Source: Planifilum fulgidum
GTDB lineage: Bacteria > Bacillota > Bacilli > Thermoactinomycetales > DSM-44946
Direction of reading: 5' to 3'
DNA: 64,000 nt
Assembly (NCBI RefSeq): GCF_900113175.1
Contig: NZ_FOOK01000006.1
Span: forward strand, 62,001-126,000
Shown: positions 61,964 through 62,746 of the stretch, one piece after another
Layout of the letters: each line of letters begins with the position of its first letter
How positions within the stretch are numbered: the first letter of the stretch is position 1
Notes under the pieces: generated by a model
The model's database searches: none
Told to the model about the DNA's origin: nothing
What the model saw: only the letters and a program-made list of their open reading frames with translations
Program-made: the position numbers and the translations under genes

Positions 61964-61994
61964 AAAACAAAAAACCCCTCGTTTGAGGGGTTTT
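61964..61994 (-). terminator. Terminator of the DsbA/FrnE gene
   Basis: AAAACCCCTC/GAGGGGTTTT stem with a 4-base loop and T-rich flank on the minus strand (TTGTTTT). It begins at the stop codon of the gene. Confidence 0.85.
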
Positions 61995-62641
61995 CAGTCA
62001 CATCCGTCCGCATCGCAGGCGAAACCTCCGCGGGTTTTCCCGCTTCTCCTGCTCAGTTCCTCCTCGATCACCCGTTCCAGGACGTCCGCATCATAGAGGC
62101 CCGTCAACACCCGGCTGCCGATGACGAAGGTGGGCACGGCCTGGATATTCATTTCCTCGTAGGCATGGCGGAGGGCTTTCCGATGTTCTTCCCGATATCT
62201 ACCCGTTTCCAAGGCTTTGCGGAAATCCTCCCCGTCCAAACCCAACTCCTCTGCCAGCTCCGTCAGAACATGGATGTCGCCGATATCCTTTTCCTCCTGG
62301 AAAAAGGCGGTGAACATCCGGTGATTGTATACTTCTCCCTTTCCGTGCTCCTTGGCGTATTGATATCCCTCAAAGGCGAGGCGGGTGTGCGGTTGGGGGG
62401 ACACCCGGGGGAGGACCATTTTTACGCCGAAGCGTTCAGCAAGGGGATAGACCGTGTTTTTCCAGGCGTTTTTAAGATATTCCCCTTCCGGCCGCAGCGT
62501 CGGCTGTGGCTCGGGTCTGAGTTCGAAGGGCATCCACTCCACGTCCACATCTTTTCCCCGGACGGCTTCCTTCAGCGGAACCTCCGCGATGAAACAGAAG
62601 GGTCACACGTAGTCCGAGTAAACGCGAATCTTCAGCGCCAT
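61994..62641 (-). CDS. DsbA/FrnE-family thiol oxidoreductase, candidate selenoprotein (UPFC)
   Basis: A thioredoxin-fold protein of 215 residues if one TGA is read through. It starts at an ATG behind AGGGAGG and reads MALKIRVYSDYV, then TGA (62603-62605, codon 13), then PFCFIAEVPLKEAVRGKDV and on through a normal FrnE-type protein: DVEWMPFELRPEP, helical insert, and AVPTFVIGSRVLTG with the cis-proline near the end. In relatives codon 13 is the first Cys of CPFC. The C-terminus carries an extra CDADGC. Without readthrough only a fragment lacking the first strand would be made. Selenocysteine is inference; a point mutation is the alternative. Confidence 0.8.
62570..62594 (-). promoter_or_regulatory. 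SECIS-like hairpin downstream of the in-frame TGA
   Basis: Counting the U of UGA as 1, bases 19-23 (GCGGA) pair with 27-31 (UCCGC) around a GGU loop at 24-26. Bases 12-15 (UUUC) pair with 33-36 (GAAG), leaving U17 in the bulge. Escherichia coli fdhF SECIS likewise has a bulged U17 and a loop with G23-U24. Folding was done by eye. Confidence 0.5.
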
Positions 62642-62746
62642 GAAAAACGCCTCCCTCCCTTTAAAGCCGGTGAGAAAAACCCCTGTTGCGGCGGCGAAGG
62701 GGGTGCCGCGATCCCTTCGGCGGATCGCAAGGTACTCCCCTCCGCT

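Follow-up and report, generated by a model that had tools for sequence, protein, structure and literature searches.

The 64,000-nucleotide stretch of Planifilum fulgidum DNA analysed here (the window) carries on its minus strand a gene with an in-frame TGA at codon 13 that, judged from its sequence and that of its relatives, is very probably a genuine, conserved selenoprotein gene. From sequence, predicted fold and analogy with the FrnE protein of Deinococcus radiodurans (drFrnE), its product can with considerable confidence be taken as the selenocysteine (Sec) form of an FrnE-type cytoplasmic disulfide oxidoreductase, a reductase with Sec13 as the nucleophile. The original prediction had described an ATG with a ribosome site, 12 codons, a TGA, PFC and a full-length homologous frame at positions 61994-62641. 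Both the coordinates and the description proved correct on re-reading: the ATG, 12 sense codons (MALKIRVYSDYV), the TGA and PFC are followed by 202 open codons and a stop. The features of the locus are:

61994..62641, minus strand: predicted selenoprotein coding sequence, FrnE/DsbA-type, 215 residues including Sec13, stop codon included (open reading frame, Pfam, orthologues)
62650..62658, minus strand: purine-rich, GGAGG-type ribosome-binding site GGGAGGGAGG, 5' of the ATG (direct reading)
62639-62641, minus strand: start codon ATG (sequence reading)
62603..62605, minus strand: in-frame TGA, codon 13, predicted to be read as Sec, first position of CPFC (orthologues have TGA or TGT/TGC)
62594..62596, minus strand: codon of Cys16, the last residue of UPFC and its resolving Cys, without variation in A1 and A2
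62575..62587, minus strand: putative SECIS hairpin GCGGAGGUUCCGC with GCGGA/UCCGC as its stem and GGU as its loop; it begins 16 nt past the TGA
61997..62017, minus strand: C-terminal CDADGCD with a CX4C motif (Cys209, Cys214), matching Cys239/Cys244 of drFrnE (sequence comparison)
61994-61996, minus strand: TGA stop codon of the gene (sequence reading)
61972..61993, minus strand: intrinsic-terminator-like hairpin, then a T-rich stretch, directly after the stop (direct reading)

Residues 5-192 of the product match the Pfam DSBA family (PF01323; E 4e-31, 108.7 bits, the cut-off being 25.6). The N-terminus leads directly into the first strand, without an export signal.

Codon 13 was read in orthologues taken from 61 relatives, a named genome collection and 399 Bacilli genomes. 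It was TGA at 40, TGT at 54 and TGC at 19 of 113 loci, and no other codon occurred; after removal of duplicates, TGA was present in 33 of 99 orthologues and TGT or TGC in the other 66, mostly in Bacilli. This places the TGA exactly on the first Cys of CPFC, as had been proposed, and the alignment of homologues suggested as a check returned Cys or TGA at that codon. The argument that a chance hit there is unlikely also held up: TGA is still present in orthologues that are only about 60% identical, and because orthologues share it and otherwise always have TGT or TGC, its occurrence at codon 13 goes far beyond chance. Carriers of the TGA include a congeneric genome (92% identity), Aneurinibacillus, Neobacillus, Cytobacillus, Mesobacillus, Litchfieldia, Tumebacillus and Ammoniphilus, together with Planctomycetales and Gemmataceae assemblies (Planctomycetota). 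When the window gene was compared with its congener 3' of the TGA, dN was 0.040 and dS 0.205, so that the part beyond the TGA is under protein-level constraint (purifying selection). The Cys forms, annotated as "DsbA family protein" in Bacillus, Planococcus and Paenibacillus (for example on a Priestia megaterium plasmid), are orthologues of equal length, mostly 53-69% identical, often with the same CGxDGC tail; they differ in having TGT or TGC for TGA and, in 64 of 66 cases, in lacking the SECIS hairpin.

Several loci call for separate comment. Two Ammoniphilus copies (L066 and L140) have TGA at codon 13 plus a TAG stop at the codon of the conserved Trp36, and a second Litchfieldia salsa copy (L112) has a TGA at that same codon; the other Litchfieldia copy (L088) has no stop at codon 36. 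From their sequences, the three with the extra stop are probably decaying copies. In the tree, the genes L055 and L122 fall among those of Bacilli, although their records are named Pseudomonas sp. ISL-84 and Chryseobacterium sp. ISL-80, both Gram-negative names; the deposited names are therefore probably wrong. A plasmid search returned relatives annotated as Cys-type "DsbA family", along with three unannotated places in Vibrio, in a record nearly devoid of a gene table. Staphylococcus plasmids of about 37-41 kb (H18-H21) carry a stretch that covers 42% of the length of the Aneurinibacillus gene at 74% identity. No gene neighbours common to most Sec loci were found; a few of these loci have an Old Yellow Enzyme or an NADPH:quinone reductase close by, both identified by reading sequences only.

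A conserved hairpin downstream of the TGA, a point that the original prediction had not raised, adds to this evidence. The sequence GCGGAGNNNCCG(C/T) occurs 16-28 nt after the TGA in all 33 non-redundant TGA genes; in Cys genes the hairpin was seen in 2 of 66, against about 1.3 expected from the codon frequencies of these genes. The same bias is apparent in single codons: Ala19 is GCG and Glu20 is GAG in 33/33 TGA genes, compared with 15 of 58 Ala codons and 11 of 58, respectively, in Cys genes. The element could fold in two ways: a GCGGA/UCCGC stem closing a loop of three bases, or a GCGG/CCGC stem closing a loop of five bases that starts with AG. A published model of bacterial SECIS elements has a loop of 3-9 nt with a G in the first two places, a spacing of 16-37 nt and an energy limit of -7.5 kcal/mol (PMC13188914). 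The loop and spacing of the hairpin fit these rules; the bare 21-nt hairpin of the P. fulgidum genome, at -7.0 kcal/mol, falls slightly short of the limit. When the 64 nt beginning at the TGA of the P. fulgidum gene are folded globally, the minimum-energy structure is a competing one, its stability no better than that of shuffled sequences (z -0.4). The stem is near-invariant among TGA genes, and because it hardly varies, its conservation comes without a covariation signal that could support the pairing. A search of the genome with the SECIS pattern gave a single match, the hairpin of this gene. Two Paenibacillus Cys forms from genomes without selA (L059 and L060) still have a whole SECIS-like hairpin. 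We considered these as telling fossils and downgraded them, since about 1.3 such cases in 66 are expected by chance; descent from a Sec ancestor is no more than suggested by them, the number being what codon usage would produce.

The genome is equipped to decode Sec. In the source assembly (3.38 Mb, 62 contigs, 99.99% complete), the check for Sec machinery found all of its parts: a tRNA-Sec with anticodon TCA, and profile matches for selA (622.6 bits), selB (360.5 bits) and selD (393.8 bits). The selD gene itself has an in-frame TGA at the catalytic position, in SKAG-U-GCK (L048:1484-2433; contig C2 of the genome, about 64360-65309), followed by a GGUCC-GGAG-GACC hairpin. We take this TGA to be the known Sec position of SelD; on that reading of the sequence selD also encodes a selenoprotein, one of a familiar kind, and the genome thus has at least two selenoprotein genes. 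Formate dehydrogenase was considered as the reason for the machinery and rejected: the Fdh-alpha matches in the genome lack an in-frame stop, and none with an in-frame TGA was found among them. Across 61 genomes, selA and selB both scored above the curated cut-offs in 25 of 25 with a TGA gene, compared with 15 of 36 with a Cys gene (Fisher p 7e-7, from counts that ignore shared ancestry). In a tree of 97 proteins, built with codon 13 masked and rooted arbitrarily, the best topology has 7 exchanges between the Sec and Cys states, compared with 26 when the labels were shuffled; when supported branches alone are counted, there are at least 4. The supported branches provide three to four independent Sec/Cys contrasts, in which hairpin and selA were all as expected or neutral. 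The root being arbitrary, we make no claim as to which state came first.

Both by sequence (E 5e-17) and by predicted fold (TM 0.82; mean pLDDT of the model, 87), the nearest solved protein is drFrnE (DR_0659; PDB 5cnw, 5co3, 5coh, 5cp1, 5xwh). The window protein shows two features of the FrnE class, an FrnE as nearest structure and a C-terminal CX4C motif. It has UPFC where drFrnE has CPWC: Sec13 occupies the place of Cys22 and Cys16 that of Cys25, and CDADGC (209-214) corresponds to the CX4C present in both. The two differ in that identity is about 26%, that drFrnE has Cys instead of Sec and that its deposited chain is 260 residues long, against 215. drFrnE has been described as a cytoplasmic disulfide reductase with disulfide isomerase and insulin reduction activities, in which the CX4C motif, absent in some FrnE proteins, is proposed to restore the active site and a Cys22-Cys244 disulfide has been observed; loss of its gene sensitises cells to cadmium and diamide (PMC8945050).

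This likeness, together with the placement of Sec13, Cys16 and CX4C, leads us to infer a cytoplasmic disulfide reductase in which Sec13 is the attacking residue. As the machinery is complete and the hairpin is present and conserved, Sec would be inserted at codon 13: SelB would bind the hairpin that lies 16-28 nt 3' of the UGA and redirect the ribosome there, and Sec-tRNA(Sec) would be used. The selenolate of Sec13 in UPFC would then attack a substrate disulfide to give a mixed selenenylsulfide, which Cys16 would resolve with formation of a Sec13-Cys16 bond. By homology with drFrnE, this bond may be reduced via the flexible Cys209-X4-Cys214, with thioredoxin reductase or low-molecular-weight thiols acting next. 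The part played by CX4C is the weakest step, because the model leaves the tail disordered (pLDDT <50) and about half of the relatives, Sec and Cys forms alike, lack it in a count that misses CX5C variants. By analogy, the enzyme would probably serve the cell by reducing aberrant disulfides in the cytoplasm during oxidative or metal stress.

Could the TGA be a mere nonsense mutation, or a miscall, at the catalytic codon? The few relatives with a second in-frame stop at codon 36 do look broken, as a pseudogene would. Against this, the TGA recurs in independent assemblies, with 33 non-redundant orthologues in Bacilli and Planctomycetota sharing it, among them the 92%-identical congener; the stretch 3' of it is under purifying selection, and the gene is associated with a SECIS element and with selA/selB. 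We rejected pseudogene and sequencing error alike on the conservation of the TGA, the SECIS element and the selection, and regard either as very improbable. Even less credit can be given to a reading of the TGA as Trp or another residue through a changed genetic code or a suppressor tRNA: no point in its favour was found, the genome has tRNA-Sec and the gene a SECIS hairpin, the same gene terminates at TGA, and the remaining orthologues have Cys at codon 13, not Trp.

It is also conceivable, if unlikely, that the protein is a true selenoprotein that works as a thiol oxidase, as an isomerase or in the manner of glutathione transferase kappa or HCCA isomerase, rather than as a disulfide reductase. 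HCCA isomerase and glutathione transferase kappa are among its fold neighbours, and drFrnE showed isomerase activity besides insulin reduction (PMC8945050). Nevertheless, drFrnE came out clearly first in the searches by sequence and by fold, and both the UXXC pair and the CX4C tail match those of drFrnE. The lack of an export signal likewise points to a cytoplasmic enzyme, which is more likely to be a reductase. A Sec-containing, FrnE-type disulfide reductase is thus the reading that we prefer.

COG2761, which we take to be the FrnE COG, also holds the DsbA-like UxxC selenoproteins, so that Sec in an FrnE-type protein is not new. Such proteins were assigned to this COG from the Sargasso Sea in 2005 (PMC1088965), and four DsbA-like ones were found in sequenced bacteria in 2006, including the clostridial Firmicute Desulfotomaculum reducens (PMC1794560). 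The original prediction, therefore, stands as regards the candidate selenoprotein, upheld by machinery, codon 13 and SECIS, and is to be amended as regards the novelty of an FrnE-type example. Like the DsbA-like selenoproteins (PF01323, COG2761), the window protein has a DSBA domain, Sec as the first residue of CxxC and a SECIS right after the UGA; its likeness to the Sargasso Sea proteins consists of the shared motif and the COG label alone. Unlike the window gene, which is from Bacilli, the earlier examples came from marine metagenomes, deltaproteobacteria and the clostridial Desulfotomaculum. DsbA-like selenoproteins were reported from 41 organisms in 2016 (PMC5029168), and a 2026 catalogue lists the family as "DsbA-like protein form 1" (PMC13188914). 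In a literature search, an FrnE-type Sec protein was not found named for Bacilli; the accessible text of PMC5029168 does not name its 41 organisms. No curated NCBIfam selenoprotein model (release 20.0) scored over its cut-off, the best being NF041057 with 26.8 bits against 190. What is new, as far as can be read from the genes, is an FrnE-Sec subfamily that occurs widely in Bacilli, in which the SECIS is near-invariant and Sec and Cys have been exchanged repeatedly.

Because no curated NCBIfam model matches this subfamily, annotation pipelines may truncate the gene or label it a pseudogene. Bacilli selenoproteins are poorly known (three families were counted in Bacillales in 2006; PMC1794560), and the FrnE-Sec subfamily provides a well-supported, widespread example of a known selenoprotein type. 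We put forward only tentatively, and with more doubt than conviction, that it might be among the main selenoproteins of Sec-decoding Bacilli and that Sec might have been lost repeatedly to Cys, with the SECIS decaying afterwards. Such repeated loss, if true, would run contrary to the 2006 conclusion that, FdhA and SelD apart, Sec rarely changes to Cys (PMC1794560). The close Sec and Cys orthologues, some of them in sister genomes, are natural pairs for gauging the benefit of selenium in one enzyme.
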